Shown here piece by piece: positions 6,075-47,790 of a stretch of DNA of 64,000 bases. The position numbers and the translations under genes were made by a program. This stretch comes from Candidatus Woesearchaeota archaeon (GTDB taxonomy: Archaea; Nanobdellota; Nanobdellia; Woesearchaeales; DSVV01): assembly GCA_018657385.1 (NCBI GenBank), contig JABHXF010000033.1:1-64000 (forward strand), written 5' to 3'. The notes below the pieces were generated by a model. That model had not been told where the DNA came from. It saw nothing but the letters and a program-made list of their open reading frames with translations, and did no database searches. Every line of letters begins with the position of its first letter. Positions within the stretch are counted from its first letter, which is position 1.

Positions 6075-6165
6075 GAAAATAACAACATGGCCAGGCGAGC
6101 CATTAGGCGAGTAGGATATTTTACGAAGTAAAATGTCCGTCTGTGCCGTGGTTGTTGTTATTTTC
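6075..6165 (+). ncRNA. Dispersed three-way-junction element, copy A
   Basis: GAAAATAACAAC..GTTGTTATTTTC outer arms; core GGCCAGGCGAGCCATTAGGCGAGTAGGATATTTTACGAAGTAAAATGTCCGTCTGTGCC. Confidence 0.7.
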
Positions 6166-6190
6166 GACATAATATAAATAAGAAAATAAT

Positions 6191-6430
6191 CTTCAACAAA
6201 AAGAGCCTTCGGCCTGTTAAAAAAGTAACAAAGAAAAATAAAAAGAGAACATCTCCAACAAAAAGAGCCTGCCGGCTTGTTAAAAAAGTAACAAAGAAAA
6301 TAAAAAGAGAACATCTTCAACAAAAAGAGCCTACGGCCTGTTAAAAAAGTAACAAAGAAAAATAAAAAGAGAACATCTCCAACAAAAAGAGCCTGCTGCC
6401 TGTTAAAAAAGTAACAAAGAAAAATAAAAT
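6191..6430 (-). repeat. 62-bp tandem repeat, about 4 units; each has a small GC hairpin plus T-tract (minus strand)
   Basis: Units start at 6191, 6253, 6315, 6377: CWYCAACAAAAAGAGCCTNCGGCCTGTTAAAAAAGTAACAAAGAAAAATAAAAAGAGAACAT. Confidence 0.9.
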
Positions 6431-6433
6431 AAA

Positions 6434-7333
6434 TTAAAATTCTCTCATTTTTTCAAACTCTTGGAATCTTTTATTAATTTCTTCCATGTTAAGAGTTTTT
6501 TGTCTTTCTAATGAAAAATCTTCAGCATTAAAGGATGCAATAGTTGATCCATAAATAATGGCTTTTCTTAAATTTGGTTCTGATATATCATCTGTTTTAG
6601 CCAACCATCCAATTAAGCCGCCTGCAAAGCTATCTCCACAACCAGTTGGGTCTTTGAGAACTTCTAATGGATAACCAGGGGCACTAAAATGTGTTGTTTG
6701 TGTGAATAATAATGCACCGTGTTCGCCTTTTTTAATTATTACATATTTTGGTCCTAAATTTAAAGCTTTATTTCCTGCATCTAATAAATTAACAGTTTCA
6801 AATAATAGACGAGCTTCTCCATCATTAATTAAAAGTAAATCTACTTTTTTAATGACTTCTATAAGGTGCTCTTTTTTGCTCTCAATCCAAAAATTCATAG
6901 TATCCATAGCAATAAGTTTTGGTTGGGATAATTGTTCTATTACTTTTAATTGCAGCTCAGGATCAATGTTACCTAATAAAATATATTCTGCATTTTTATA
7001 ACTTTCTGGAAGGTTTGCTGAGAATTCTGTTATTGAGTTTAGTTCTGTATTTAATGTTTTAGCTTCATTCATATCATATTCATATTCTCCTGACCATCTG
7101 AATGTTTTACCTTTGAACTCAATGCCACTCATATCTATATTTTTGTTAGTTAATAGGTTTTTATATTCTTCTGGAAAATCTTCTCCTGCTATTGAAACTA
7201 TACCAACATTAGTGAAAAAAGAAGATGCATATGAAGCATACACTGCACTTCCTCCAAGAATCGCTTTCATGTCTCCAAAAGGAGTTTTAACATCATCTAA
7301 ACCAATACTTCCTATGATTATTGTTTTTGCCAT
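6434..7333 (-). CDS. PfkB-family carbohydrate/nucleoside kinase
   Basis: C-terminal DPTGCGDSFAGGLIGW PfkB signature; N-terminal GGSAVYAS. Confidence 0.9.
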   Translation of the reverse strand: MAKTIIIGSIGLDDVKTPFGDMKAILGGSAVYASYASSFFTNVGIVSIAGEDFPEEYKNLLTNKNIDMSGIEFKGKTFRWSGEYEYDMNEAKTLNTELNSITEFSANLPESYKNAEYILLGNIDPELQLKVIEQLSQPKLIAMDTMNFWIESKKEHLIEVIKKVDLLLINDGEARLLFETVNLLDAGNKALNLGPKYVIIKKGEHGALLFTQTTHFSAPGYPLEVLKDPTGCGDSFAGGLIGWLAKTDDISEPNLRKAIIYGSTIASFNAEDFSLERQKTLNMEEINKRFQEFEKMREF

Positions 7334-7373
7334 GGCTTTTTGGGTAGGCTGATTATTTATATATTTTATTGAA

Positions 7374-7462
7374 AATGCTTGTAAGGATTGTAGGGCTAGT
7401 AAGGTTTGTCAGGCCTTATTTGTCTTACGAACCTAACAAGCCTGAATAGCTTTACAAACATT
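7374..7462. other. Long imperfect inverted repeat in divergent intergenic region
   Basis: AATGCTTGTAAGG..CTTTACAAACATT outer arms (one mismatch, one G.U) plus inner AGGTTTGT..ACGAACCT. Confidence 0.55.
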
Positions 7463-7502
7463 ATCAATAACATTTTTAAACTTCCGAAATTATTTTGCTT
7501 AT

Positions 7503-8771
7503 ATGGACATATTTAACAAAGTTATTGCAAAACACCTGCCTAACAAAACAGAACAAGCTAGAATTAGGTCTGAAATAGATGAATTTATAGAAAACTTAGA
7601 AAAAGTAATGAAAAAGCAGGAGATTTTAGGAGAAGTAATGCTTGGTGGGAGTGCTGCTAAAGGTACATTCTTGATAAAAGATTTTGATGTTGATGTTTTT
7701 GTAAGGTTTGATTATGAATATAAAGATAAAGATTTATCACCTATGCTTGAATCTATGTTATTATCTATTAAAAAAATTAAGTTTGATAAAGTCCATGGTT
7801 CAAGAGATTACTTTCAATCTAAAACTAAAAAAATTAATTATGAAATTATTCCTGTTTTAAAAGTAGATGATCCTAAGAAAGCATTGAATGTAACTGATAT
7901 GAGTCCTTTGCATGTTAAATGGCTAAAAAAACATTTGTCTAAAAATCTTAGAAATGAAGTTGTCTTAGCAAAATTATTTTGTAAAGCACAACATGTTTAT
8001 GGTGCTGAATCATATATTCAGGGTTTATCTGGACATGTTTTAGATATTTTAATTGTTTATTATGGGAGTTTTTTGAAATTACTTAAAGCATCTCAAAATT
8101 GGGATTTACTTGGTAAAAAAAATGAAATAATTGATGTTGAAAAACATAATAGTGTTGGTAAATTGAATAAATCTAAAATATCTCCTTTAATTGTAATTGA
8201 TCCTATTCAACCAGAAAGAAATGCAGCAGCAGCTTTAAGTAAAGAAAAACTTAATATTTTTGTAATAGCTGCAAAAGAATTTTTAGATAAGCCACATGAA
8301 AAGTATTTTGCTAGAAAAGAATATAATTTAGATGATTTAAAAGCAATTAAAATAAAACATTGTGCTAGCTGGTTGTTGATTTTGGATATTAATGCTTTAA
8401 ATGGAAAAGAAGATATTGTTGGAGCAAAATTATTAAAATCATATAAACATATTTTAAGACATCTTAAAATTAATGAATTTACTGTTAAGGAATCAGGCTG
8501 GAAATGGGATAAGCAGAAAAAAGCTGAATTTTGGTATGTTATAGAAGAAGATAAATTGAGTAAATCTTTGGAAAGAATGGGTCCACCAGTATCAGCTAAA
8601 AATGCTGCAGAAGGTTTTAAATTAAAGCATAAAAAAGCATATGAAAGGGAAGATAGATTATATGCAATGGTGGAAAGGTTATTTAAAACACCTGATAAAT
8701 TAGCTAAATCAATGGTTAAGGAAGAATATGTTAAAGAAAAAATTAAGAGTGGAAAGTTAAAGGTGTATTGA
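7503..8771 (+). CDS. cca: Archaeal CCA-adding enzyme (tRNA nucleotidyltransferase)
   Basis: GGSAAKGTFLIKDFDVDVFVRF class I CCA nucleotidyltransferase motif. Confidence 0.93.
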   Translation: MDIFNKVIAKHLPNKTEQARIRSEIDEFIENLEKVMKKQEILGEVMLGGSAAKGTFLIKDFDVDVFVRFDYEYKDKDLSPMLESMLLSIKKIKFDKVHGSRDYFQSKTKKINYEIIPVLKVDDPKKALNVTDMSPLHVKWLKKHLSKNLRNEVVLAKLFCKAQHVYGAESYIQGLSGHVLDILIVYYGSFLKLLKASQNWDLLGKKNEIIDVEKHNSVGKLNKSKISPLIVIDPIQPERNAAAALSKEKLNIFVIAAKEFLDKPHEKYFARKEYNLDDLKAIKIKHCASWLLILDINALNGKEDIVGAKLLKSYKHILRHLKINEFTVKESGWKWDKQKKAEFWYVIEEDKLSKSLERMGPPVSAKNAAEGFKLKHKKAYEREDRLYAMVERLFKTPDKLAKSMVKEEYVKEKIKSGKLKVY

Positions 8772-8832
8772 TAATTTATTTATAATGTTGTATGTGTGAA
8801 TTGAAAATTTGATTTAGATTTAATAGTATTTA

Positions 8833-8921
8833 AAAAACAACAACAATCCTGGCACAGACGGACATTTGCTACGCAAATATCTTACTCGCCTAACGGCTCG
8901 CCTGGCCAAGTTGTTGTTTTT
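8833..8921 (-). ncRNA. Dispersed three-way-junction element, copy B
   Basis: Reverse complement core GGCCAGGCGAGCCGTTAGGCGAGTAAGATATTTGCGTAGCAAATGTCCGTCTGTGCC. Confidence 0.7.
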
Positions 8922-8966
8922 CACTTTGAAATGAATGGAAAATAGAATTTAATTAATAAAATAAAT

Positions 8967-9443
8967 ATGATAAAAGAAATATTAGAATTAATTGGAATTA
9001 CTTTAATACCTGGGCTAGAATTGAGAGCAAGTATTCCTTATGGTATTTTACAGACAGAACTTCATTGGTTTACTATATTTTTTATTTGTGTTATTGTAAA
9101 TATTATATTGGGTGTTATTATCTATTTTTTGTTGGATAAAGTTGTTCATCTATTCTTTTTTTGGAAGTGGTTCCATAAACTTTATCATAAAATTGTTGAA
9201 AGATCTCAGAAAAAGATACAAAAATATGTTGATAAGTATGGGACTATTGGCTTAGCTTTATTTATTGGTATTCCATTACCTGGATCAGGAGTTTATACAG
9301 GTGCATTAGGAGCATATGTTTTAGGTTTTGGTTATAGGAGATTTATAATTGCAAGTACTATTGGTGTTTTAATTGCAGGTGTGCTTGTTACTGCTATTAT
9401 GTTAAGTGGTAATGGCTTGTTTAATTTTTTAGTTAAGGTATAA
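8967..9443 (+). CDS. Small multi-drug export family membrane protein (COG2426-like)
   Basis: ELRASIPYGI and GIPLPGSGVYTGALGAY motifs. Confidence 0.8.
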   Translation: MIKEILELIGITLIPGLELRASIPYGILQTELHWFTIFFICVIVNIILGVIIYFLLDKVVHLFFFWKWFHKLYHKIVERSQKKIQKYVDKYGTIGLALFIGIPLPGSGVYTGALGAYVLGFGYRRFIIASTIGVLIAGVLVTAIMLSGNGLFNFLVKV

Positions 9444-9444
9444 A

Positions 9445-10023
9445 ATGAAATATATAAAAAAAGAACAAATATTACAATGGGTTTTAATTGGAGTAGGTGT
9501 GATTGCATTAATTGTAAGTTTATTTTTTGATACTGCTATTAATGAAAAATTAAGTGGATTGAATTATCCAATTCTTAGTGCAATGTCCATTGTGTTAAGT
9601 AATTTATATCTGATTATTTTGGTTTTGTTTATTTATACAACTTTTGCTATGTATATTGGGAAAAAAAGAGAAGGAATTTTGCCATTATGGGCAAGTTTAA
9701 TTATTACTATTGTATTAGGTGTTTTATTGAAACTGTTAGTTGCAAGAGAAAGACCATTAGATGTTAATGATTTTGCTTTTTTTACATATGCATTTCCTAG
9801 TCTACATGCAGCAATATGCTTCTGTGTTGTTCCAATCTTAGATGTTGAATTTCCTAGGTTGAAATGGTTTTGGATTGGTTTAGGGGTGCTAGTAGGATTA
9901 AGTAGGTTATTTTTACAAGTACATTATCTAAGTGATGTAATTGCTGGTATTTTAATTGGTTATATTATTGGGCTAGTTGTATGGTATATGAATCAAAAGT
10001 TCTTTTATAAGATTAAATGGTAA
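9445..10023 (+). CDS. PAP2-family membrane phosphatase
   Basis: KLLVARERP..FPSLHA..SRLFLQVHYLSDVIAG motifs. Confidence 0.9.
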   Translation: MKYIKKEQILQWVLIGVGVIALIVSLFFDTAINEKLSGLNYPILSAMSIVLSNLYLIILVLFIYTTFAMYIGKKREGILPLWASLIITIVLGVLLKLLVARERPLDVNDFAFFTYAFPSLHAAICFCVVPILDVEFPRLKWFWIGLGVLVGLSRLFLQVHYLSDVIAGILIGYIIGLVVWYMNQKFFYKIKW

Positions 10024-10053
10024 TTGATTTTTTTAATTCTTTTATTGTGAAGT

Positions 10054-10151
10054 AAATCCAGCCATTCTTGGCAGGGCTAACGGACTTTTGCTATGCAAAA
10101 GTCCTATTCACCTCGTTTCACTCGGCTCATCAGCCCGCCATGACTGGATTT
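10054..10151 (-). ncRNA. Dispersed three-way-junction element, copy C (extended P1/P2)
   Basis: AAATCCAG..CTGGATTT arms; reverse complement core GGCGGGCTGATGAGCC..GGTGAATAGGACTTTTGCATAGCAAAAGTCCGTTAGCCCTGCC. Confidence 0.65.
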
Positions 10152-10181
10152 TTTCCAAAAACATTAAATATTAGCTTATTT

Positions 10182-10658
10182 ATGATAGCATATATGAGAA
10201 TAACAATAGATACTGATGATTCAAAAGAAGAGATAATTAAAGCTATTAACTTATTGAAAGAAGCAATTGAAAATAAAGGTTCTAATTCTAATCAAAATGA
10301 GTTTGATTTAGGTGGATTAAACTTTAATGAGCCTAAAAAAGTTGAAACAATTGATCTTGATGAACCTAATGATGAACCAAGCCAAGAAGAAGTTGAGAAA
10401 TTGATTCAATCACAACTTGAAGCTTCTACACCAACAAATCAACCTTCAAGCCAGTCCTCACAACCAACTGGGGCTTTTGGAGCAATGTTTGGTGGCGAAA
10501 GCAAGAATGACATATTTAGTAATGATGATGGTTTTGGTGGAAATGATGATAATTCTTCTGCAAATGACTTAATTAATAATCCAAATAAAAAAGAAGAGAA
10601 AGATGAAGAATGGGGACCTAGAACCAAGATGACATTAGGTGATTTGGAGAGGTATTAA
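10182..10658 (+). CDS. Hypothetical acidic, low-complexity C-terminal protein
   Basis: Start reassigned from 10068, because the called N-terminus is translated from repeat copy C; ATG at 10182 or 10194. Confidence 0.65.
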   Translation: MIAYMRITIDTDDSKEEIIKAINLLKEAIENKGSNSNQNEFDLGGLNFNEPKKVETIDLDEPNDEPSQEEVEKLIQSQLEASTPTNQPSSQSSQPTGAFGAMFGGESKNDIFSNDDGFGGNDDNSSANDLINNPNKKEEKDEEWGPRTKMTLGDLERY

Positions 10659-10677
10659 TTATATTCTTTTTCCATTA

Positions 10678-10689
10678 AATATATAAATT
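10678..10689 (+). promoter_or_regulatory. TATA box for gdhA leader
   Basis: AAATATATAAAT; predicted start about 25 nt downstream, giving a leader of roughly 155 nt. Confidence 0.45.
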
Positions 10690-10730
10690 CTTACTAATTC
10701 TGCAAGTGTATAATTATAATAATTAAAAAA

Positions 10731-10851
10731 GTATTCAAGATGTCTCGCTCGTGTCCACCCTATAATAAAAGCTTCGCTTGGAAAGGGTGGTAGCTTAAAT
10801 AACAATCAGGATATGGCACTCGCTGGTCCTGAAGGACGACACCTTGAATAC
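10731..10851 (+). ncRNA. Structured 5' leader of glutamate dehydrogenase (candidate cis-regulatory RNA)
   Basis: GTATTCAAG..CTTGAATAC closing stem; CCACCCT..AGGGTGG, AAGC-TTC-GCTT, GTCC-TGAA-GGAC internal hairpins; ends about 17 nt before ATG. Confidence 0.6.
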
Positions 10852-10868
10852 AAACAGAGGTAAAAAAA

Positions 10869-12131
10869 ATGGTATTTGAAAATGTAGTAGCAATGTTAGA
10901 CAAGGTTTCTAAAGTAATGGAGTTAAAAGAAGAAGAAAAACAAAAATTATTAACTTTTACAAGAGTTAGTCATGATGAGATAGAAGTTGATGGAGAAAAG
11001 TATCCAACATGGCGTATTGTTCATAATGATGCATTAGGTCCTGGAAAAGGTGGTATAAGGTATCATCCTGGTGTTTCTGAAGATGAAGTTAAATCATTAT
11101 CATTCTGGATGAGTATTAAGAATAGTTTAGCTGGATTACCTTTTGGAGGAGCAAAAGGTGGTGTTATTATTGATCCTAAAGCATTAGTAGAGAAATTAGG
11201 AAGAAAAGGAGCAGATAAAAGATTAGAAGCAGTCAGTCGTGGTTTTGTACAAAAATTCCATAATGTTCTTGGACAAGATATTGATGTACCTGCTCCAGAT
11301 GTTTACACTAATCCACAAACAATGGGTTGGATGTTAGATGAATTTGAAAAATTGAAAGGTAAACATGAACCTGGTGTTTTTACAGGAAAACCAATTGCCT
11401 TAGGTGGAATTCCTTTAAGAAGTGATTCAACAGCTAAAGGCGGATATATTATGTTTAAAGAAATTATTTCTGAACTAAAAAATCAAGATGTAACTATTGC
11501 AGTGCAGGGCTTTGGTAATGCTGGTTATTTCTTTGCAAGTATGGCTGGAAAAGATGGGCATAGAGTTGTAGCAGTAAGCGACAGCAAAGGCGGAATTTAT
11601 GATGAAAATGGTTTTAGAGTTGAAGAAGTAAAAAAAATTAAAGATGAAGAAGGTAGTGTTGTAAATTGCTATAAAGATGGTGGTTGTTATGGTAAGAAAA
11701 TTAGTAATGAAGAACTTTTAGAATTAGATGTTGATTTTTTAATTTTAGCAGCACTTGAGAACCAAGTTACAACTGAAAATGCTTCCAAAATAAAAGCAAA
11801 GTATGTTATTGAGTTAGCAAATGGTCCTGTTACAACAGAAGCAGATGACATTCTTTATAATAATGGTGTTGTTGTTGTTCCTGATGTGTTAGCTAATTCA
11901 GGTGGTGTTGTTGGAAGTTATCTAGAATGGGTACAGAACAGAACTGGAATGATCTTTGAAGAGGATTATTTAGTTGGAAGATTAGATAAAATCATGAAAA
12001 AGAGTTATCATGCTGTTGATCAATTACATAAAGACAAAAATGTCAATATGAGAGTTGCTTCTTATGTTTTAGCAATTGAAAGAATTTTAGGAGCAGAGAA
12101 AGCAAGGGGACGATTGTGTTGTTATAAATGA
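10869..12131 (+). CDS. gdhA: Glutamate dehydrogenase
   Basis: GPGKGGIRYHP, FGGAKGG, DVPAPDVYT, GFGNAGYFFA motifs. Confidence 0.95.
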   Translation: MVFENVVAMLDKVSKVMELKEEEKQKLLTFTRVSHDEIEVDGEKYPTWRIVHNDALGPGKGGIRYHPGVSEDEVKSLSFWMSIKNSLAGLPFGGAKGGVIIDPKALVEKLGRKGADKRLEAVSRGFVQKFHNVLGQDIDVPAPDVYTNPQTMGWMLDEFEKLKGKHEPGVFTGKPIALGGIPLRSDSTAKGGYIMFKEIISELKNQDVTIAVQGFGNAGYFFASMAGKDGHRVVAVSDSKGGIYDENGFRVEEVKKIKDEEGSVVNCYKDGGCYGKKISNEELLELDVDFLILAALENQVTTENASKIKAKYVIELANGPVTTEADDILYNNGVVVVPDVLANSGGVVGSYLEWVQNRTGMIFEEDYLVGRLDKIMKKSYHAVDQLHKDKNVNMRVASYVLAIERILGAEKARGRLCCYK

Positions 12132-12185
12132 ATTATTTCTTTTTTCTATTATTTTTTTATTAATTTTAAAGCTTTAATACCATAA

Positions 12186-13076
12186 TTAGGGCGTATACAC
12201 TACTTTGTAAAATGCTTCAGGAACATTACAGCTAACTACTTTACATTTTTTAAATCTTTGATTTTTTTCTTCTAATTGATCTATTCTACTATATCCTTCT
12301 CTTTTGAAAACTTTTTCACCATCATCAGTCGGATAATTAGTTATTATAAAACCTTCTGTGTCATGATCATGAGCAATATTCTTGATTAGTTCCTCATTTA
12401 ATTTTACAACATAATGTGGTATGTTTAATCTGCAATCTTCTTTCCATCTTAATGGGATTGGCATGATTAAATCTACTTCATCTTTTGGTCTTATCCAAAA
12501 TTTATTTGCTTCTTCTAGGTTTATGCTATATACTAACAATATATCATAAACTTGGTCATCAACCTCTTCTCTAAATAATTGGAAATTAAAGCTCCCTGCA
12601 ATAGATATTCTCTCAAATGCAGCACCATATTTTTCTTCTCTTTTTTTTAAGAATTCTGAAAAAGATTTGAGTTGAGGCGTATCTTGTTTATTTTTTTCAT
12701 ACCATTCTCTTGATTCTAACTCACATCCATTACTCATTATTGATATGTCAACATGGAGAGCAGTTATTTCTTTGTAAGAAAAATCAAGACTGGATATTCC
12801 TAACTTTAATGGTTTTACTTCTAATTTTGGGATTAATTCATATGCTTCAGGAAGTTGATCCTTTAGAATTTTTATTGCTTGCATTAATTTCCTTGTAAAT
12901 TCTTCTGGAGTATAACCATATGTTTTACTTACAAAAGAACTAATTTCAGGTTTATTTATATATAATGAAACCATTTTTTGAACTCTTGTTTCAACATCTT
13001 GATCCATAGAAAGAAAATCAAAAGCTTGTTCAGTAGTTAAATCGTCTATTGATTGTGGAATTCGTTTATTACTCAT
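12186..13076 (-). CDS. Hypothetical protein
   Basis: 296-aa ORF; no confident domain. Confidence 0.65.
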   Translation of the reverse strand: MSNKRIPQSIDDLTTEQAFDFLSMDQDVETRVQKMVSLYINKPEISSFVSKTYGYTPEEFTRKLMQAIKILKDQLPEAYELIPKLEVKPLKLGISSLDFSYKEITALHVDISIMSNGCELESREWYEKNKQDTPQLKSFSEFLKKREEKYGAAFERISIAGSFNFQLFREEVDDQVYDILLVYSINLEEANKFWIRPKDEVDLIMPIPLRWKEDCRLNIPHYVVKLNEELIKNIAHDHDTEGFIITNYPTDDGEKVFKREGYSRIDQLEEKNQRFKKCKVVSCNVPEAFYKVVYTP

Positions 13077-13149
13077 GACATAAAGAAATCTAGTGGGGTT
13101 TTTAAATTATCTTATTTATTACTTTAATAAATCCTAGTGAAAAAACTAT

Positions 13150-13180
13150 CCCACCTCCTATTCCCCCGACCACCCACCCC
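13150..13180 (-). other. G-rich tract, potential G-quadruplex on minus strand
   Basis: Minus strand GGGGTGGGTGGTCGGGGGAATAGGAGGTGGG. Confidence 0.4.
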
Positions 13181-13351
13181 TTAATTGTAAGAAGGAAAAA
13201 GGGGATTTATTGTTTTAGAAAACTCATAACTTAATAACTACATATCCACTACAAACCTAGAACTCATAACTTAATAACTATTTACAAACTCAAAACTAAA
13301 TTACTAATAACCAACTACAAACTTAAAACTCACAACTACTTCCCCCAAGAA

Positions 13352-13954
13352 CTATAGATCAATAATTTTTCCTTCTCTACCTACATTAATAACTTTGGTA
13401 TCGCCTATTTTCTCTTCAATACCTTGTGCTTCATGGACATGGCTACAAAATAGAATATCAGGTTTGAATTTTTCAACTGCTTTTTTTACTCCAATACTAC
13501 CTTTAACAAAATCAGAAAACTTCTCCATCTTTGTTTCAGAAGGATGAACATGAGTCATCATGATTTTCTTTTTCAAATATTTAATATTATCAAAACCTTT
13601 TTTTAGATTGTCATAAATTTCTTTTTCATCAATCTGGTTAGGACCAATATTTGCAAAACCACAACCAAAAATACCAACATCTTCATATTTTACACTATAA
13701 CCATGAACATTTTTGATGCCATAGAACTCTGTAAGAAAATCAGCAGTTGCTACGCTGTCATGATTGCCAGGGATAAATAATACTTTTTTACCTGCTTTTT
13801 TGAATGGTCCAATTAAACCATCTACACCTTGATCAAAATATGTAATGTCTCCAGTAATTAATACTAAATCAACATCTTCATCTTTAGCTTTCTTAGCTAG
13901 TTTCTTAACTAGGCTAACATCACCATGAATATCTCCTGTAGCTAGTATTTTCAT
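13352..13954 (-). CDS. Metallophosphoesterase
   Basis: GDIHGD, GDITYFDQ, PGNHD, THVHPSE, SHVHEAQG motifs. Confidence 0.92.
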   Translation of the reverse strand: MKILATGDIHGDVSLVKKLAKKAKDEDVDLVLITGDITYFDQGVDGLIGPFKKAGKKVLFIPGNHDSVATADFLTEFYGIKNVHGYSVKYEDVGIFGCGFANIGPNQIDEKEIYDNLKKGFDNIKYLKKKIMMTHVHPSETKMEKFSDFVKGSIGVKKAVEKFKPDILFCSHVHEAQGIEEKIGDTKVINVGREGKIIDL

Positions 13955-14064
13955 TATACTATATAGGTTGAAAGAGGGTTTTATATGTTTTTCCTTGTTT
14001 TTTATGTAAGAATTATGCTATTTCACCATAAAACATAAATACCATATATATTAAAGATAGATAT

Positions 14065-15177: not shown

Positions 15178-15225
15178 CTGTTTTTCCATTATATATATAA
15201 ATAATAACTAAATCTTTAATGTAAA

Positions 15226-16158: not shown

Positions 16159-16174
16159 TTCTTTTTTTGAAATT

Positions 16175-16262
16175 ATTTAATGGCGTAGATCGACCGGGGG
16201 ATGTCCCATCCGGGGTGGTCGATAGGTCTGAGTTAAACGAAGACCGTCTAGCGCCATTAAAT
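16175..16262 (+). ncRNA. Divergent three-way-junction element, copy E
   Basis: ATTTAATGGCG/CGCCATTAAAT closing stem, TAGA/TCTA, CGACC..GGTCG P2, GGTCT..AGACC P3, then GT. Confidence 0.5.
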
Positions 16263-16286
16263 TAAAAAATTTCTTTTAACAATTAA

Positions 16287-16390
16287 GAAAATCCATTCAT
16301 TCATGGCAGCACATACGGACTTTTCGCTTCGCTCAAAATCCTATTCGGTTCACTACGTTCACCTCACATGTGCGCCATGAATGGATTTTC
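16287..16390 (-). ncRNA. Dispersed three-way-junction element, copy D
   Basis: GAAAATCCATTCAT..ATGAATGGATTTTC 14-bp arms; reverse complement core GGCGCACATGTGAGGT..ACCGAATAGGATTTT..AAAAGTCCGTATGTGCTGCC. Confidence 0.65.
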
Positions 16391-16444
16391 AGTAACGATT
16401 TATGTTTAATTAACTTTATATATCACTAATTACCTAGAAACAAT

Positions 16445-21175: not shown

Positions 21176-21263
21176 AAAAAACAACAACATGGCCAGGCGA
21201 GCCGAAGGTGAGTAGGACTTTACGTAGGAAAGTCCGTCTGTGCCATTGATGTTGTTGTTTTTT
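21176..21263 (+). ncRNA. Dispersed three-way-junction element, copy F
   Basis: AAAAAACAACAACAT..ATGTTGTTGTTTTTT 15-bp arms; core GGCCAGGCGAGCCGAAGGTGAGTAGGACTTTACGTAGGAAAGTCCGTCTGTGCC. Confidence 0.72.
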
Positions 21264-35532: not shown

Positions 35533-35545
35533 AATAGGTGAAATC

Positions 35546-37935: not shown

Positions 37936-37945
37936 TTTTTTCTTT

Positions 37946-38230: not shown

Positions 38231-38326
38231 ATTATATGTCTTATTGATTTTAATTTAAATAATTTTTGTTAGTTATATAAACATAATCCACAACCTTTAA
38301 AAATAACCATATTCTTTGGATTGGAT

Positions 38327-39216: not shown

Positions 39217-40414
39217 TTCACCAAAAACAAAAGCATTAACAGGTGCTCAAGCAGTTGCACAAGCAATGAGACAAATTAATCCTGATGTTGTTAGTGTTTT
39301 TCCAATTACACCACAAACAGCTATAATGATGCAGTTTTCACAATTCCATGCTGATGGTTTAGTAGAAACAGAATTAGTTAGGGTAGAATCTGAACATTCA
39401 GCAATGTCATGTTGCGTTGGTGCAAGTGCTGCTGGAGCAAGAGCAATGACTGCTACTGCATCAGCTGGTTTAGCATTAATGTGGGAAATATTAGGTGTTG
39501 CTTCTGGATTAAGACTACCAATAATAATGCCAGTTGTTAATCGTGCATTATCTGCTCCTATTAATATTCATGGAGATCATTCAGATGCAATGGGTGCAAG
39601 AGATCAAGGATGGATACAAATATTTTGCGAAAATGGGCAAGAAGCTTATGAAAATACAATGTTAGCGGTAAAATTAGCAGAACATAAAGATGTTATGTTA
39701 CCTGTAATGGTTTGTCAAGATGGATTTATTACAAGTCATGGTGTACAAAATGTTAATTTATTTGAAGATAAGGTTGTTAAAAAGTTTGTAGGTGATTATG
39801 AACCTAAAAAATGGTTGCTTAATACAGATGATCCAGTTACTTACGGTCCTTTACAATTACAAGATTATTATTTTGAAACACAAAAACAAAGAGCAGATGC
39901 AATGTTAGCTTCTAAGAAAATTTATTTAGAGATTGGAAAAGAATTAAGTAAAATTACTGGTAGTAATTATCCATTATTTGAAGAATATAAACTCAAAGAT
40001 GCAGAAGCTGTTATTGTTGTTATGAGTTCAACAGCCGGAAATACTAAAGTTGTTATTGATAAAATGAGGGCTGAAGGTAAAAAAGTAGGGTTATTAAAAC
40101 CAAAATTGTTTAGACCATTTCCTTATACGGAAATTGCTAAAGCATTAGCTAATAAAAAATATGTTGCTGTTCTTGATAGATCTGAAAATTATGGTGCAAA
40201 TGCTCCTTTGTTTGGAGAAATAAAAAATGCATTGTTTGATTCTGTTGTTTGTGGTGATAAAGATGTTTGTGTTCCTAAATTAAAAAGTTATATTTTTGGA
40301 TTAGGTGGAAGAAATATTTTTGAATCTGACATAGAAGATGTTTTTGATGTGTTACTTTCTGATAACTTTGATAATAAAGTTGGTTATATTGGCTTGAGAG
40401 GAGAAGAAAAATGA
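39209..40414 (+). CDS. porA: 2-oxoacid:ferredoxin oxidoreductase alpha subunit
   Basis: FPITPQTAIM, ESEHSAMSCCVGASAAGARAMTATASAGLALM; GTG start at 39209 overlapping the delta subunit is likely. Confidence 0.93.
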   Translation: MTNSPKTKALTGAQAVAQAMRQINPDVVSVFPITPQTAIMMQFSQFHADGLVETELVRVESEHSAMSCCVGASAAGARAMTATASAGLALMWEILGVASGLRLPIIMPVVNRALSAPINIHGDHSDAMGARDQGWIQIFCENGQEAYENTMLAVKLAEHKDVMLPVMVCQDGFITSHGVQNVNLFEDKVVKKFVGDYEPKKWLLNTDDPVTYGPLQLQDYYFETQKQRADAMLASKKIYLEIGKELSKITGSNYPLFEEYKLKDAEAVIVVMSSTAGNTKVVIDKMRAEGKKVGLLKPKLFRPFPYTEIAKALANKKYVAVLDRSENYGANAPLFGEIKNALFDSVVCGDKDVCVPKLKSYIFGLGGRNIFESDIEDVFDVLLSDNFDNKVGYIGLRGEEK

Positions 40415-41331
40415 ATTATAAAGAACTAGTTAATAAACCTCAAAAGTTTGCTCCTGGCCATAGAAGTTGTGCAGGTTGCGGATTTCCACCAATTGTTAGG
40501 ACTGTATTGGCATCAACAGATGACCCAATAGTTGCAGCTTGTGCTACTGGTTGTTTAGAAGTAACCTCTACTATTTATCCGTTTACTTCATGGGGAATTC
40601 CTTTTATCCATAATGCTTTTGAAAATTCAGCTGCAACTATTTCTGGAGTTGAAGCAGCATACAATGCATTGAAAAGAAAAGGCAGGATTCCTAAAAATAA
40701 AAAAATTAAATTTGTTGCTTTTGGAGGAGATGGCGGAACATATGATATTGGATTGCAATCATTATCCGGGGCATTAGAAAGAGGACATGATTTTACTTAT
40801 ATCTTATATGATAATGAGGCTTATATGAATACTGGAATTCAAAGAAGTAGTTCAACACCTTTTGGTGCTTCAACAACAACTGCTCCTGCTGGTAAAGTTC
40901 ATCAAGGTAAAGAAGAATGGAAAAAAGATATTATGCAAATTGTAACTGCTCATCATATTCCTTATGTTGCACAAGCATCTGTTCATAATCCTATTGATTT
41001 ATCAATGAAAGCAGAGAAAGCTTTGAACACTCCTGGTCCTGCATTCCTTGTTGTGTTACAACCATGTACTTTAGGCTGGAGATATCATCCATCAATGACT
41101 ATAGATATGGCAAAGATGGCTGTTGAATCTAATTTCTGGCCATTGTATGAAGTTGAAAATGGTAAGTATAAATTAAATTATAAACCTTCAAAAGCAATTC
41201 CAATAGTTGATTATCTAAAACCACAAGGTAGGTTTAAGCATTTGTTCAAGCCTGAGAATAAACATTTGTTAGATGAAATGCAAAAAAAAGTTAATGAAAG
41301 ATGGGATGAGTTAGTTAAGAAGTGTGAATAA
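40411..41331 (+). CDS. porB: 2-oxoacid:ferredoxin oxidoreductase beta subunit
   Basis: HRSCAGCGFP, FGGDGGTYDIGLQSLSGALERGHDFTYILYDNEAYMNTGIQ TPP motif. Confidence 0.95.
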   Translation: MNYKELVNKPQKFAPGHRSCAGCGFPPIVRTVLASTDDPIVAACATGCLEVTSTIYPFTSWGIPFIHNAFENSAATISGVEAAYNALKRKGRIPKNKKIKFVAFGGDGGTYDIGLQSLSGALERGHDFTYILYDNEAYMNTGIQRSSSTPFGASTTTAPAGKVHQGKEEWKKDIMQIVTAHHIPYVAQASVHNPIDLSMKAEKALNTPGPAFLVVLQPCTLGWRYHPSMTIDMAKMAVESNFWPLYEVENGKYKLNYKPSKAIPIVDYLKPQGRFKHLFKPENKHLLDEMQKKVNERWDELVKKCE

Positions 41332-41377
41332 TTCTTTTTTTGTTTTTTTTGACAGGCCGACAGGCTCTTTTTGTTGT
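41332..41377 (+). terminator. Terminator-like T-tract plus hairpin
   Basis: TTTTTTTGTTTTTTTTGACAGGCCGACAGGCTCTTTTTGTTGT; same motif as the 62-bp array. Confidence 0.5.
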
Positions 41378-41427
41378 GATTTTTTTTAAATATTTTCATT
41401 TTTTATCTGGTGAGTTATTCTAATAAT

Positions 41428-41515
41428 GAAAAAACAACAACATAGGCACGGACGGACATTTTTCTGCGAAAAATATCCTACTCGGCTTCGCCTCGCCCGG
41501 CCATGTTGTTTTTTC
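41428..41515 (-). ncRNA. Dispersed three-way-junction element, copy G
   Basis: Reverse complement core GGCCGGGCGAGGCGAAGCCGAGTAGGATATTTTTCGCAGAAAAATGTCCGTCCGTGCC. Confidence 0.72.
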
Positions 41516-41561
41516 AAATAAACAACTAAATTTATAAATTCTATACCTTACTTTAATACTA

Positions 41562-43358
41562 ATGATCACTAACAAAGCCTATTTTAAGGAATTAATCTCT
41601 AAGTTAAAAATAAAGCCATTAACAGATAGGCAAGTTTCTAGATTTAAGATGGACTTATGTAAAAAACATAAAGTTAAGCAGATGCCAACTAATATTCATG
41701 TTTTGTTAAATGCTGATGAAAAATATCTTGGAAAACTAAAATATTTGCAAACAAAACCAACTAGAACTATTTCAGGTGTTTCAATTGTAGCATTGATGAC
41801 AAAACCATTTCATTGTCCACATGCCAAATCTTCTAAATCTAAATTAAGTAAATCTAAGAAAGGTCCTTGTATCTTTTGTCCTGGTGGTCCTAAAAGTAAG
41901 ATTGGAAATGTTCCTCAGTCTTATACTGGTAATGAACCATCAACAATGCGTGGAATTAGAAATAAATTTGATAGTTATTTAAGTACAATGAATAGATTAG
42001 AGCAATATGTTGTTCTTGGACATAATTTTGATAAGATTGAATTAATTGTAATGGGTGGAACATTTAATGCATTCCCTAAAAAATATCAAGAAGATTTTGT
42101 TATGTATGCTTTCAAGGCAATGAATGATTTTAGTAAAATCTTTTTTGATTCTAAAGGTAAGTTTAATGTTATGAAATTTAGGGAATTCTTTTTATTACCT
42201 GGGGTTGTTGGTGATCCTATTAGAACAAAAAAGATTCAAAAGAAGTTGTTAGAATTAAAGAATAAAGTAAATGGGAAAAAAGTTAAAACAACTTTAGAAA
42301 ATGAGCAGAAAAAGAATGAAAAAGCAAAAATTAGATGTGTTGGATTAACATTAGAAACAAGACCTGATTGTATTGATAAAAAAACAGCAAATGAAATGTT
42401 AAAATTAGGAGCAACAAGAGTTGAGTTAGGTGTGCAAAGTGTTTACGATGATGTTTTAGATTTTGTTAAAAGAGGTCATGGTGTTTCTGAATCTATTAAG
42501 GCAACAAAATTATTGAAAGATTTAGGTTTTAAAATTAATTATCATTTAATGCCTGGTTTACCTGATAAAAATGGAAAAGTAATAAGCATAAAAAAAGATT
42601 TAGCAGGGTTAAAAGAGATTTTTGAAAATTCTGATTTTAGACCAGATATGTTAAAATTATATCCTTGCATGGTAATGCCAGGTACTAAATTATTTAATTT
42701 ATGGAAAAAAGGTAAGTTTAAGGCTTTGACAACTGAAAAAGCAGCAGAATTGATTGCAGAGTTTAAGAAATATGTTCCTGTTTATTGTAGAATTCAGAGG
42801 ATTCAAAGAGATATTCCTTCGTATATGGCAAAAGCAGGTGTTGATAAAACTAATTTAAGGCAATATGTTGAAAAAATTATGAACAAACATGAAAAAGAAG
42901 CTAAAATTAAAGGAAAAAATAAATGCAGATGTATTAGATGCAGAGAAGCAGGACATGTATTTAGAAAACATAAATTAATTCCAAAAGAAATTAAGTTAAT
43001 TGTTCGTGGTTATGAAGCTTCTAAAGGTGTAGAATGGTTTATTACAATTGAGGATAAAAAACAAGATATTCTTTTAGGCTATTGCAGATTAAGAATAGCA
43101 GATAAAGCTTTTATCAGAGAATTACATGTTGTTGGAGAAGCTGTTGGTATTGGTAAAGATAAAATAGCAGGGAAAAGCAAAGTAAAAGCAACACAACATA
43201 AGGGTTTAGGTAAAAAAATGTTGAAAGAAGCTGAGAAAATAGCAAAACAATTTAATAAAAAGAAAATAATTGTTATTTCTGGAATTGGTGTAAGAGATTA
43301 TTATAGGAAATTTGGTTATAAGAAAGAAGGCGTTTATATGGTGAAGATTCTTAAGTAA
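41562..43358 (+). CDS. elp3: Elp3: tRNA uridine(34) acetyltransferase (radical SAM + GNAT)
   Basis: CPHAKSSKSKL..CIFCPGGP, LGVQSVYDDVLDFVKRGH, GNAT AFIRELHVVGEAVGIG. Confidence 0.95.
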   Translation: MITNKAYFKELISKLKIKPLTDRQVSRFKMDLCKKHKVKQMPTNIHVLLNADEKYLGKLKYLQTKPTRTISGVSIVALMTKPFHCPHAKSSKSKLSKSKKGPCIFCPGGPKSKIGNVPQSYTGNEPSTMRGIRNKFDSYLSTMNRLEQYVVLGHNFDKIELIVMGGTFNAFPKKYQEDFVMYAFKAMNDFSKIFFDSKGKFNVMKFREFFLLPGVVGDPIRTKKIQKKLLELKNKVNGKKVKTTLENEQKKNEKAKIRCVGLTLETRPDCIDKKTANEMLKLGATRVELGVQSVYDDVLDFVKRGHGVSESIKATKLLKDLGFKINYHLMPGLPDKNGKVISIKKDLAGLKEIFENSDFRPDMLKLYPCMVMPGTKLFNLWKKGKFKALTTEKAAELIAEFKKYVPVYCRIQRIQRDIPSYMAKAGVDKTNLRQYVEKIMNKHEKEAKIKGKNKCRCIRCREAGHVFRKHKLIPKEIKLIVRGYEASKGVEWFITIEDKKQDILLGYCRLRIADKAFIRELHVVGEAVGIGKDKIAGKSKVKATQHKGLGKKMLKEAEKIAKQFNKKKIIVISGIGVRDYYRKFGYKKEGVYMVKILK

Positions 43359-43508
43359 CTTGCTAATTTTACTTGTTTTTATATAGTAGTACTACCCTAC
43401 AATAATACTAAAACTATTTAATAACTATTACATATCTATATATAAATCATATAAAGATAGTATTATTTATATTATATATACAATGTGTCGGGAAAAAAGG
43501 GTGGTAAA

Positions 43509-45038
43509 ATGAAATTAATGGTTAAAGAGTGCTTAATTAAAAATCTAAATGCTGATGTTCTTGTAATTCCTGTTTTTAAGGATATGGAAAATAAAGAAAA
43601 GATGTTTGTTGAGGTTAATAATATTCTTAATAAACTACTTTCTCAAACAATATATGAAAATCCTGATATTGGGGAAGAAGGAAAATTTCATATGTTCTAT
43701 ACTAATTCAAGATTAAAACTAAAAAGAGTTTTGTTAGCTGGTTTAGGAGAGTCTGATGAATTAGATTTAGAAAAAATTAGAAATCTAGGTGGGAAATTAG
43801 CTGCTCACATAAAAAATAATTCTATGAAAGATGTTGCATTTCTAAGTTTTGGTTATGATCTTAAGAATGTTACAATAGAAGCTGCATCTAAAGCATTAGT
43901 AGTTGGTTTTAAACTTGGGGATTACAAATATGAAGAGTTTAAAACAGAAAATATGGGTACAAAAGAAGCAGACAAGGGAAAAAAGAAATACAAAGGTATT
44001 AATTCATTGCTTTTTGTTCCACAAGTTAAATCTGATCTAAAATTGATTGAAAATGTAATTAAAGATGCTGAGATTGTTTCAAATAATGTTTGTATTGTAA
44101 GAGATTTAGTTAATAAACCTGCAAACATGTTGTCACCATCTCTTTATGTGAAAGAAATTAAAAAAATATTTACAAAATCAAAAGTTAAGGTTAAAATATT
44201 AGAAGAAGCTGCTATTAAAAAAGAAAAAATGGGTTGTATTATTAATGTAGCAAAAGGCAGCGTCGAGAAACCAAAATTAGTTGTATTAACTTATTCCCCT
44301 CCAAAAGCTAAGAAAACAATTGTTTTTGTTGGTAAAGGGGTTACATTTGATGCTGGTGGAACTAATTTAAAGCCTAGCCAATATATTTCTAACATGAAAC
44401 AAGACATGGGTGGAAGTGCTGCTGTTGTTGGTGCTGTAAAATCAGCTGCAGAGATGAAATTTCCAATTAAAGTTATTGGAATCATGCCATTAGTTGAGAA
44501 TTTAATTAGTGGAACAGCAATGAAAACTGGAGATGTTATAACTGCTGCAAATGGAAAAACAATTGAAGTAGAAAATACAGATGCAGAAGGAAGATTAATA
44601 TTAGCAGATGCATTACATTATGCAACTAAATTTAAACCATATTGTATTGTTGATATTGCAACTTTAACAGGTGCTGCAAGTGTTGCTTTAGGTAGTAGGT
44701 GTACATCATTAATGGGAAATGATCAAGATTTAATTAAAAATCTAATTGAAGCTGGAGAAAAAATGCATGAAAAAGCATGGCAATTACCTTTATTTAAGGA
44801 ATATGATGAAGATATTAAAAGTGATATTGCAGATCTCAAAAATATGGGTAATCCAGGTGGAGAAGCAGGAACAATAATTGGGGGTATGTTCTTGCAAAAC
44901 TTTATTGGGGAGAATAAATGGGTACATCTTGATATTGGTGCAACAGCTTTTACTGCTAAACCTAATGCGTATAAATCAAAAGGTGCAACTGGTGTTCCTG
45001 TTAGGATGTTAGTTAAGTGGATGAGAGGATTGTTTTGA
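43509..45038 (+). CDS. pepA: Leucyl aminopeptidase (M17)
   Basis: VGKGVTFDAGGTNLKPS, NTDAEGRLILADAL; start MKLMVKECL after GGGTGG. Confidence 0.95.
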   Translation: MKLMVKECLIKNLNADVLVIPVFKDMENKEKMFVEVNNILNKLLSQTIYENPDIGEEGKFHMFYTNSRLKLKRVLLAGLGESDELDLEKIRNLGGKLAAHIKNNSMKDVAFLSFGYDLKNVTIEAASKALVVGFKLGDYKYEEFKTENMGTKEADKGKKKYKGINSLLFVPQVKSDLKLIENVIKDAEIVSNNVCIVRDLVNKPANMLSPSLYVKEIKKIFTKSKVKVKILEEAAIKKEKMGCIINVAKGSVEKPKLVVLTYSPPKAKKTIVFVGKGVTFDAGGTNLKPSQYISNMKQDMGGSAAVVGAVKSAAEMKFPIKVIGIMPLVENLISGTAMKTGDVITAANGKTIEVENTDAEGRLILADALHYATKFKPYCIVDIATLTGAASVALGSRCTSLMGNDQDLIKNLIEAGEKMHEKAWQLPLFKEYDEDIKSDIADLKNMGNPGGEAGTIIGGMFLQNFIGENKWVHLDIGATAFTAKPNAYKSKGATGVPVRMLVKWMRGLF

Positions 45039-45094
45039 TTTGTTTGATATGTTAATAACGTAAAAAACAATAATCAATTTAATATAATACTAAC

Positions 45095-45190
45095 GTAAAA
45101 AACAACAACATCATTGGCACAGACGGACATTTTACTTTGTAAAATATCCTATTCGCCTTCGGCTCATCTGGCCATGCTGTTGTTTTTTAC
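45095..45190 (-). ncRNA. Dispersed three-way-junction element, copy H
   Basis: Reverse complement core GGCCAGATGAGCCGAAGGCGAATAGGATATTTTACAAAGTAAAATGTCCGTCTGTGCC. Confidence 0.72.
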
Positions 45191-45255
45191 TTGAGAAAAT
45201 AAAAATATTTAATAAGAAAGATTAATAGTTAAATAAATTTTCCTGTTTTTAGAAC

Positions 45256-47634
45256 TCAATAATCAAATAAACTCTTTTGTTTCTTTCCTGATATTAGCTC
45301 ATCAAACTTCTGATCGAAGAATCCTAGAATAGAATCAGCAATTGGTTTTAGTTGTTTATTGATATAATGGTCATAATCTACTTTAGATTTTAATTTTTGA
45401 ATTGGTTCTGGACCATTTTCTGTAACTACATATTTAATTATAGTGGAATCAATCTTATCTAATAATCTTGCTGCTTTTACATGAGGTGGTGTTGTTTTAA
45501 CATATTCTTCAAGAGGTTTTCTTAATTCTTTTGTATAAATTAGTAATTTATCATGTTTTCCAGATTTAAGGTCTTTAACAAATTTAATTATATAATCTGA
45601 AACTTCTTTATCATGAAATATTTTATCAAGTAATTCTAATTGAAATTCTTTAGCTAAGTCTGTCCAATCTCTTCTTACAAATTCTAAGCCAACAAAATCC
45701 ATGTCTTCTTTAATTTTTATTTTTCCATTCTTGTCTTTTTCTCTAATAAGTTTTAATCCTGCATATCTTTTCTTTGCTCCAACATCAGTTCCCCTCAACT
45801 TTGGCATGATAAACTTTTTGTAAATTTTTTCATATTCCAATTCTAAGAAACAAGGCATGTTATACCAATCTTTAACAGTTGCTTCCCAATATTCATTAAT
45901 GAACTTTTGTATTTTTTCTCCTACTTTGTCTGCATCTTCTAATGTTTTTGCTTTTACGTCTACAAAAATAGAATCTGTATCACCATAAATAACTTTGTAA
46001 TTTCCATCTTTCACATCCATCTCTTCTACTCTTTTTACAGTTTCTTGAATTATATAACGTGCATAGCTAGTTATTGCATTTGCTACATCTAAATTAAAAA
46101 ATCTGCAATTTGGATTAGCAAGTACTCCGAAAAAACTATTCATTGTAATTTTAATTGCATGGCTTGCTGCTGTATCTTTCTTTTTCTTTGCTTCATCTCT
46201 CATTCTCCATAAATATTCAATTAAATTTGGAAGAACTCCTACTTTTTTGTAGAATCTTGCTTTGTTTGGGGCTTTTATTTCTCCTTTTTTACCTGTTTCA
46301 TCAAATCTTAATGGATCGATGTTAAATGTTCTAATAATACTAGGATACAGGCTTTTGAAATCTAATACTAAAATATAATCATAAATCCCAGGTGATGATT
46401 GTTTAACATAGCCACCCTTTATTCGTTCATCATTATCATTATATCTTGAGGATGGTGCTACAATTTTAAGTTTTTTAGTTTCTCTTAAATACATTGAATC
46501 TAAGCTAGCAATAGAACCTGATACACGATCTGGCTGCATACCTGTTAATATTGATCTTTTAACTGTTAGATTGATTAAATCTTTTTTCTCAAAAATATCA
46601 TATACAAGCTGTGAATCTACTAAGTTATAATCAACTACTTTTTGTGGATCTGTCTTATAAAGATTAATTATTTCATCAGCTCTGTTATTTCCTTTGATTA
46701 ATTTACCTTTGCCAAGAATTGTTTGTGCAGCTGTTTCTAGTTTGTAGTCATCTAATCTAATAAAATTATTTTTTAATAATTCAATTCCATCTAACACTTG
46801 TCTTCCTGCAATATCTGCATTAGATGATCTAAAAAAATCAGCTTGTATTCTTACTTTTGATTCCCAATCTGTTCTTCCAAGTATAAATGGGATTTTACTT
46901 TTTTTGAATCTTTCTCTTAATACATTTAAATCAAAATCAATCACATTCCATCCTGTTAATATATCTGGATCAATTTCTTGAACTTTGTCTTTGAAATATT
47001 GTAATAATGCTGCTTCATTTTCAAAACAAATTGCATTTTTTAATTTTCCTGTTTTTTTTTCTTGTTTTTGATCGTAAACTATGAAAACTTTTTTGTAATC
47101 ATCTGTATATAATGAGATTGATAATAGTTTGGTGGCATCTTCATTAGTTTCAATATCAAATGATAGGATTTTTAGTTTTGGTTTATATTCTTTTGTTTCA
47201 CTAAACTTTGGATTTTCATAAATTCTATTAACAAGGTTTCCTTTTTTGTAATCTCCTTCTATATTAGTAATACCTTTGATGTTATTATCCATCATAAATC
47301 TATATGTGAATCTAACATCTGCTTCATAACATGGTATTTTGTTATCTTCTAATTCTTTTCTTAATCTGTTAATATCATTTGGTAAATCTAATATTATTTT
47401 AGAAACTTCTTCTTCATCAAAGTTTTTAGCTTTTCCTTTGCCTGTTTCTGCTGTAATTTTAATTTCTTCTGCTATTTTAAGTGCTTTATCTAATTGTTTC
47501 TTTTTCACCCAGAAATATGGTCTGAATAAGTTGATTGATAAGAAACTTTCACCATTATCTAGTTTTCCAAATAAATAAACATGTGCTTTATTATCTATAA
47601 TCCTATATGTTGGATATACTATGAATGCTTTCAT
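45256..47634 (-). CDS. polB: Family-B DNA polymerase
   Basis: Exo FDIETNEDATKL, DFKSLYPSIIRTFNIDP, YGDTDSIFVD. Confidence 0.96.
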   Translation of the reverse strand: MKAFIVYPTYRIIDNKAHVYLFGKLDNGESFLSINLFRPYFWVKKKQLDKALKIAEEIKITAETGKGKAKNFDEEEVSKIILDLPNDINRLRKELEDNKIPCYEADVRFTYRFMMDNNIKGITNIEGDYKKGNLVNRIYENPKFSETKEYKPKLKILSFDIETNEDATKLLSISLYTDDYKKVFIVYDQKQEKKTGKLKNAICFENEAALLQYFKDKVQEIDPDILTGWNVIDFDLNVLRERFKKSKIPFILGRTDWESKVRIQADFFRSSNADIAGRQVLDGIELLKNNFIRLDDYKLETAAQTILGKGKLIKGNNRADEIINLYKTDPQKVVDYNLVDSQLVYDIFEKKDLINLTVKRSILTGMQPDRVSGSIASLDSMYLRETKKLKIVAPSSRYNDNDERIKGGYVKQSSPGIYDYILVLDFKSLYPSIIRTFNIDPLRFDETGKKGEIKAPNKARFYKKVGVLPNLIEYLWRMRDEAKKKKDTAASHAIKITMNSFFGVLANPNCRFFNLDVANAITSYARYIIQETVKRVEEMDVKDGNYKVIYGDTDSIFVDVKAKTLEDADKVGEKIQKFINEYWEATVKDWYNMPCFLELEYEKIYKKFIMPKLRGTDVGAKKRYAGLKLIREKDKNGKIKIKEDMDFVGLEFVRRDWTDLAKEFQLELLDKIFHDKEVSDYIIKFVKDLKSGKHDKLLIYTKELRKPLEEYVKTTPPHVKAARLLDKIDSTIIKYVVTENGPEPIQKLKSKVDYDHYINKQLKPIADSILGFFDQKFDELISGKKQKSLFDY

Positions 47635-47700
47635 GATTATTTTAGTATATTTTGATGTTTATATTGATTTTGGTTGAAATATGGTATTTGAGATAATTTG

Positions 47701-47790
47701 AAATCCAACAACATGGCCGGGCGAGGCGAAGCCGAGTAGGATATTTGCTTGCAAATGTCCGTCCGTGCCGTTGTTGTTGTTGTTGGATTT
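47701..47790 (+). ncRNA. Dispersed three-way-junction element, copy I
   Basis: AAATCCAACAAC..GTTGTTGGATTT arms; core GGCCGGGCGAGGCGAAGCCGAGTAGGATATTTGCTTGCAAATGTCCGTCCGTGCC. Confidence 0.72.

Follow-up and report, generated by a model that had tools for sequence, protein, structure and literature searches.

The first 64,000 nucleotides of contig JABHXF010000033.1 (assembly GCA_018657385.1, a Candidatus Woesearchaeota archaeon), referred to here as the window, contain nine copies of a branched repeat of about 100 nt, and the question raised by this locus is whether such a repeat represents a structured RNA, a DNA site that serves the host, or mobile DNA. The answer reached below is that the copies are probably mobile DNA of Woesearchaeota, miniature and non-autonomous, which is recognised by its fold. 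The copies were located with two covariance models, namely R1, a consensus model built from six copies, and R2, a broader model for diverged members, and are as follows.

Copy 1, 6075-6165, plus strand: R1 78.0 bits, with fold and parse; outer stem GAAAATAACAAC/GTTGTTATTTTC, core 6087-6147; GGC 6089-6091 with GCC 6145-6147; P1 6092-6094/6141-6143; T bulge 6144; Y 6096 paired with R 6111; tandem GA 6097-6098 with GA 6109-6110; P2 6099-6101/6106-6108, loop ATTA; TA 6112-6113; P3 6114-6138; GT 6139-6140.
Copy 2, 8833-8921, minus strand: core 8851-8909; R1 75.1 bits.
Copy 3, 10054-10151, minus strand: R1 39.4 and R2 59.7 bits; long P1 (GGGCT/AGCCC); P2 extended by tandem GA; outer stem AAATCCAGTC/GGCTGGATTT, a type found across the order.
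Copy 4, divergent, 16175-16262, plus strand: R2 28.3 bits, E = 1e-8 (local scan of 801 bases with filters off), match 16180-16255; P2 long (CCGGGGGATGTCCCATCCGGGGTGG), a trait shared with other families; C-G/G-C in place of the G.A pairs.
Copy 5, 16287-16390, minus strand: R2 50.0 bits; long P1 (GCACAT/ATGTGC); outer stem GAAAATCCATTC/GAATGGATTTTC.
Copy 6, 21176-21263, plus strand: core 21189-21244; R1 69.6 bits.
Copy 7, 41428-41515, minus strand: core 41445-41504; R1 80.8 bits.
Copy 8, 45095-45190, minus strand: core 45116-45175; R1 78.5 bits.
Copy 9, 47701-47790, plus strand: core 47713-47769; R1 80.5 bits.

All nine, which an earlier sequence-only reading had placed at these positions and strands, fold as a three-way junction in the layout described there; the eight clear copies were re-found by R1 and R2, and the divergent one was matched by R2. 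For the family as a whole, 110 copies were collected from the genome under study (G000; 1.54 Mb in 60 contigs, 90% complete), 66 from a copy-rich congener (G001; 92% complete, about 80% identical to G000) and 21 from other genera. Across 104 distinct G000 copies the structure is 99.0% paired, 11 of 17 pairs carry double-sided changes (193 cells), and covariation amounts to 0.330 against no more than 0.047 for slid structures, a value reached in none of 500 shuffles; in 57 distinct diverse sequences the corresponding figures are 95.8% paired, 17 of 18 pairs (163 cells) and 0.494 against at most 0.092. Both alignments were fitted to the model and thereby favour it. The P2 stem alone occurs as GCC/GGC, GGC/GCC, GAC/GTC, GTC/GAC, ACC/GGT, GGT/ACC, GCT/AGC and AGC/GCT. 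The slid controls, together with the kinds of substitution seen, put the covariation of the fold beyond doubt, and the covarying stems and conserved junction on which the sequence-only reading depended are both present.

The junction itself is tighter than that reading had it. The joints NYGA, GARTA and GU were held to be fixed and single-stranded, and the conservation is borne out; however, the Y of NYGA pairs with the R of GARTA (C-G in 123, T-A in 58, T.G in 3, C.A in 2 and another combination in 1 of 187 parsed copies), and the GA/GA next to P2 forms tandem G.A pairs, replaced elsewhere by GC/GC, GA/TC, TC/GA or CG/CG, all of them Watson-Crick, so that the unpaired joints shrink to N, TA and GT. 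The TA entering P3 and the GT leaving it are invariant, and a T bulge lies on the 3′ side of P1. In some copies extra hairpins sit inside the P2 or P3 arm (locus L246, 4780-4981; L120, 2501-2605; L088, 6193-6284) with the junction intact, which indicates that the arms tolerate insertions. The two strands are not equivalent: G.T exceeds A.C by 67 to 25 in the outer stems, by 48 to 9 in the core and by 88 to 0 at the fourth pair of P3, and the strand described here is therefore the folding one. One strand is thus under selection to fold as a T-shaped three-way junction.

The outer stem is a terminal inverted repeat of 12-20 bp (mean 14 bp), at the foot of which the unpaired bases on the 5′ and 3′ sides number (1,5), (0,4), (2,6) or (3,7), that is, with a 4-nt excess on the 3′ side; the exact difference of four is found in about two thirds of 176 stems. 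This asymmetric internal loop was absent from the earlier description, as was the second hairpin discussed below. Outer stems are variable, with AAAATCCAGCC in most families, and the terminal repeats AAAATCCAGCCATGGC/GCCATGGNTGGCTGGATTTT are present in several. Ten genera, represented by 12 genomes, carry the 16-nt repeat AAAATCCAGCCATGGC, and almost every occurrence marks a copy's end; the reversed control is not found. The repeat is conserved beyond the needs of pairing, as expected for ends read by a protein. A solitary terminal repeat beside a truB-like gene (L282) is seen as a remnant. Inverted neighbour copies are frequent in the other families (L065, L193, L196, L198, L205, L209 and L211, at about 1501-1720); they lie 2-85 nt apart with their 5′ ends facing and have differing outer-stem types, resembling REP doublets.

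A search of the whole of G000 with R1 returned 109 copies at E ≤ 0.1, mostly at E < 1e-9, and the exact 13-mer GTCCGTCYGTGCC from the 3′ half occurs 82 times in that genome against none for the reversed control; the repeat is therefore not a product of chance. G001 holds at least 72 copies. Diverged members were detected by R2 in 79 of 353 genomes and 62 of 220 genera of the order (Candidatus Woesearchaeota), often with at least 13 matches per genome. The same order accounts for all 38 positives among 371 genomes drawn evenly across the phylum, and scanning 84,980 species genomes for the pattern yielded the name Candidatus Woesearchaeota, with one genome labelled Nanoarchaeota; neither the draw nor the scan, the latter with model confirmation, revealed a member outside the order. 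Bacterial matches to the core pattern are attributed to chance, none being confirmed by the covariance model (best E 0.37). The viral contigs tested gave no core-pattern match, and 100 loci with a looser pattern gave no model match.

With regard to genes, the copies are intergenic by simple open reading frame (ORF) calling, with the exception of two G000 copies inside an ORF call, and their neighbours may be divergent, convergent or codirectional. In the codirectional settings 41 copies are sense and 44 antisense. Distant copies adjoin unrelated genes, which by eye from translations include a ribosomal protein uS13-like gene, aminoacyl-tRNA synthetases, GAPDH and regulators, and a promoter-like signal at a set position upstream of the copies was not found. 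The sequence-only reading had its copies intergenic and in both orientations, and considered a role in untranslated regions common to all copies unlikely, which the even orientation counts support. A cis-regulatory role (riboswitch, terminator or untranslated region) was rejected on the random orientation and the unrelated neighbours.

Between G000 and G001, with both flanks required, 42 sites could be compared; the element is in both genomes at 21 and absent from G001 at the other 21, and since the G001 stretches were chosen around its own copies, empty sites are under-counted. At the clearest empty sites (E12, E14, E60, E61, E66, E87, E93, E104 and E108) the G000 interval is longer by about 120 or 130 to 270 nt, and copy 8 of the window is missing from the orthologous site of the congener, where the flanking matches are 32 nt apart against 224 nt in G000. 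Among shared sites, E3 and E64 have near-identical cores (0.96-0.98) in more diverged flanks, and at copy 7 the congener has a near-identical P3 with a different but compensated P1, junction pair and P2. Some shared sites, copy 9 among them, hold copies of opposite orientation; inversion in place was not accepted as the cause, because the cores differ and independent insertion is equally likely. In contig C33 of G000 (about 29.3 kb; L110, 2460-2680) a complete copy with its downstream hairpin is nested inside an older, broken one, and many 5′ flanks hold truncated 5′ halves of another copy. The copies are dispersed and at times nested, their presence varies between congeners, and they show no preference for gene orientation; this bears out the earlier suggestion of a dispersed structured repeat that is probably mobile. 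Separately, the 3′ half of a copy and its flank are tandemly duplicated at about 66.5 kb of C33 (L111, 2543-2678; 54-bp period, 98% match), with similar duplications at C27:1-300 and the end of C8; the duplications that lie at the ends of contigs could have arisen in assembly.

About half of the G000 copies have a companion, a short terminator-like hairpin of class a (AACAAAAAGAGCCTGNCGGCYTGTTAAAA) or class b (GAAACAYGTCCTCCGGACCTAGTAAAA). The G000 stretches examined contain 68 such hairpins, of which 55 have a copy within 150 nt; in 48 cases the hairpin follows the copy on the 3′ side, with matching orientation and at a distance of about 50-70 nt (typically about 55 nt). They accompany 52 of 110 G000 copies, and the next gene is convergent in 41 of the 52. 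In G001 the hairpin is rare (6 matches), and sites without the element there usually lack the hairpin as well. This association and joint absence mean that some members of the family in this species move, or are maintained, together with the hairpin as one unit of two; outside the species the element occurs by itself. Hairpins of both classes are usually found just past the stop codon of a convergent gene (for example L110, L111 and L112). In the window the second hairpin takes a tandem form.

Second hairpin AACAAAAAGAGCCTGCCGGCYTGTTAAAA, 6189-6429, plus strand: tandem repeat of 3.9 copies with a 62-bp period (Tandem Repeats Finder).

The anatomy of the copies, their indifference to genes and their comings and goings together fit non-autonomous mobile DNA that is recognised as a folded strand. 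Such a model would have the fold form in single-stranded DNA (ssDNA), either on the lagging-strand template or on a nicked strand, where a trans-acting transposase or recombinase would recognise the junction together with the stem at the ends. From the 4-nt asymmetry the enzyme could tell which strand and which end it has met, after which it would cut at or near the stem ends and paste the element between genes; many copies of this genus would take along the second hairpin about 55 nt downstream. It is put forward more tentatively, as something possible rather than probable, that the element belongs to a new class of DPANN mobile DNA that moves as a folded single strand with a recognised three-way junction and depends on an enzyme outside the known Y1, RAYT and integron-integrase systems; the invariant TA and GT joints, the tandem G.A pairs, arms in the form of GNA minihairpins and a polarity given by the 4-nt bulge would be its features.

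Several observations weigh against mobility as a folded DNA strand. Neither an autonomous partner nor a cognate enzyme was found, although no full survey of transposase families was made, and the 30 loci read with the 16-nt end contain no transposase-bearing version with the same ends, which likewise falls short of an exhaustive survey. Genes for Y1 (IS200-type) transposases are absent from the copy-rich G001, and the Y1 loci examined in copy-rich genomes have no flanking copies. A clean target-site duplication is not readable in the G000-G001 comparison, as the congener is only about 80% identical; the ends are AT-rich. Most same-site pairs of the two genomes are not each other's closest copies. 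As to the kind of nucleic acid, the G.T pairs and the strongly conserved junction would also fit RNA, distant families have other P2 loops, and the loop rule discussed next is an argument from DNA biophysics and not a measurement.

The choice between DNA and RNA turns mainly on the loops. Among 138 short P2 loops 124 (90%) are GNA or GNNA, with a pyrimidine at the third place in 29 of 29 GNNA loops, and 89 of 138 short P3 loops are triloops, counts that represent non-independent events since the copies are related. The P2 loops follow the rule published for extraordinarily stable DNA minihairpins, a GNA or GNNA loop with at least two G-C pairs (PMC4686876). The absence of a promoter signal, the lack of orientation preference and the agreement of the loops with that rule make ssDNA the better guess. 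Structured RNAs favour GNRA and UNCG loops, neither of which occurs in the 276 short loops of P2 and P3. A structured RNA family, in which the transcribed sense strand folds into a ribozyme or into an RNA for processing or protein binding, the repeats that encode it multiply, perhaps by retrotransposition, and an RNA-binding protein recognises P2 and P3, thus appears unlikely, although it would account for the invariant TA and GT joints, for G.T (G-U) pairs on one strand, including one that is constant in about half the copies, for tandem G.A pairs, which are common in RNA, and for 18 P3 loops that read CTTG with a G-C closing pair, a loop known to be stable in RNA. Its further difficulties are that Rfam has no match and that no reverse transcriptase gene was found in G000 or G001. 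The proposal of a self-folding non-coding RNA or processing element made in the sequence-only reading is, for the same reasons of promoter, orientation and loops, unsupported so far.

A second possibility is that the copies are REP/BIME-type DNA sites kept for binding by host proteins of the nucleoid, replication, repair or termination, with mobility belonging to the past. In its favour, about 100 copies are spread along the genome, cores at some shared sites (E3 and E64) evolve slowly, insertion is near gene 3′ ends, and the next gene is convergent for 41 of the 52 hairpin-bearing copies; yet the element is patchy (274 of 353 genomes of the order have no match), half of the comparable congener sites are empty, and its position relative to genes is not fixed, all of which renders a standing service to the host quite unlikely.

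Derivation from IS200/IS605 or REP-RAYT systems, in which RTAGG and the P3 hairpin would correspond to the head and hairpin of a REP that a Y1 transposase cuts, is very unlikely. The segment leading into P3 does read (G/A)TAG followed by a hairpin, like the GT(A/G)G with which REPs begin (PMC2817692), and 10 of 14 copy-rich genomes have Y1 genes against 4 of 12 copy-poor ones. However, the R of RTAG forms a base pair, in which it trades places with Y, G001 at its 92% completeness is rich in copies without a Y1 gene, and the one Y1 gene near a copy (L181) is about 1.1 kb away in an insertion sequence (IS) that appears seated in the stem of another copy. A Y1 transposase was accordingly rejected as the driver, being missing from G001, unflanked elsewhere and in G000 seemingly landed inside a copy. 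The IS200-like Y1 region in question (L181, 1400-2091, at the end of C3, and the end of C50) has outer sequence matching the 3′ flank of another copy, and the contigs break at this apparent insertion into an outer stem. A Xer-type recombinase gene 0.35 kb from copy E19 is taken as a chance neighbour, for the congener has it without that copy. Finally, a lack of all mobility, with old insertions that only undergo local slippage and inversion where hairpins are strong, could draw on the tandem duplications of the 3′ half and the opposite orientations at some shared sites; it is hardly credible in view of the many unrelated gene contexts, the empty sites and the nested insertion.

The order of the Woesearchaeota is large, its members are mostly uncultured and their genomes are small. 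In such genomes a branched element of about 100 nt, at about 100 copies in 1.5 Mb and spread over 62 genera, would count as a major constituent that has apparently not been described. The junction supplies hundreds of natural variants of one fold, in which pairs, loops and joints can be tested together. If it acts as ssDNA, it would be a natural DNA three-way junction under selection and point to an unknown fold-recognising recombinase; if as RNA, it would add a new and highly abundant member to the structured RNAs of archaea. In both cases the repeat is of use as a genome marker and probably causes breaks in assemblies: contigs C8, C14, C27, C32, C37, C50 and C53 of G000 start or end within a few hundred bases of a copy, and the repeat thus probably fragments Woesearchaeota assemblies. 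Apart from the element, the window encodes at 2507-5980 an ORF of 1157 aa with internal repeats about 705-714 bp apart.

Among known systems the closest parallels are functional. Like the repetitive extragenic palindromes and their relatives (REP, BIME and REPIN; PMC3116915, PMC2817692), the element is a short, intergenic, palindromic and non-autonomous repeat with about 100 or more copies per genome, compensatory stem changes, inverted neighbour pairs, a proposed ssDNA fold and RTAG ahead of a hairpin. REPs, however, are simple hairpins of 20-40 nt directly preceded by a GT(A/G)G head, with a RAYT gene between two inverted copies, whereas here the hairpin is one arm of a three-way junction within an inverted-repeat stem, the first R of the head is G or A in a pair with Y, and the Y1 loci of copy-rich genomes are unflanked. 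With the attC sites of integrons (PMC2727003; archaeal integrons, PMC9668308) the element shares an imperfect palindrome with little sequence conservation, a proposed recognition as one folded DNA strand, and asymmetric unpaired bases that could set polarity. In attC sites the folded strand with extrahelical bases is the recombinogenic one; in the present element a strand asymmetry and the 4-nt asymmetric loop are seen at the sequence level. It differs in having a true three-way junction, variable stems or AAAATCCAGCC in place of AAC/GTT boxes, and unrelated single genes as neighbours in place of a cassette array and an adjoining integrase. Miniature inverted-repeat transposable elements (MITEs; reviewed in PMC10969869) are likewise small, non-coding, intergenic and multicopy with terminal inverted repeats, here stems of 14 bp on average. 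The conserved, covarying junction sets the element apart from them; a parent IS with the same ends was not found among the 30 loci read, nor was a clear target-site duplication seen against a congener about 80% identical. The inverted terminal repeats of the adeno-associated virus type are T-shaped, with a long stem, two short arms and three-base loops, and are read by Rep as folded ssDNA; the present repeat, similar in stem, arms and loops, is by contrast chromosomal and dispersed, with no linked virus or Rep gene and no occurrence in the viral contigs tested. The hammerhead ribozyme, a three-way junction with tandem G.A pairs closing its stem II, was discarded since its CUGANGA / GAAA / NUH core is absent (here NYGA / GARTA / GT) and Rfam offers no match, and a kink-turn bound by L7Ae was discarded on the replacement of the tandem G.A pairs by Watson-Crick ones. 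The window has no Rfam match at the gathering threshold or at E of at most 1, in line with the earlier failure to recognise a described class, and among the literature results listed, which concerned repeats of Woesearchaeota, hairpins of DPANN archaea and the part of three-way junctions in transposition, none describes such an element, subscription journals and preprints being outside that scope. No described element family therefore seems to match, known MITEs having been compared by description only; while failing the defining features of REP/REPIN and attC, the element appears to work most like these two, with ends resembling those of MITEs.

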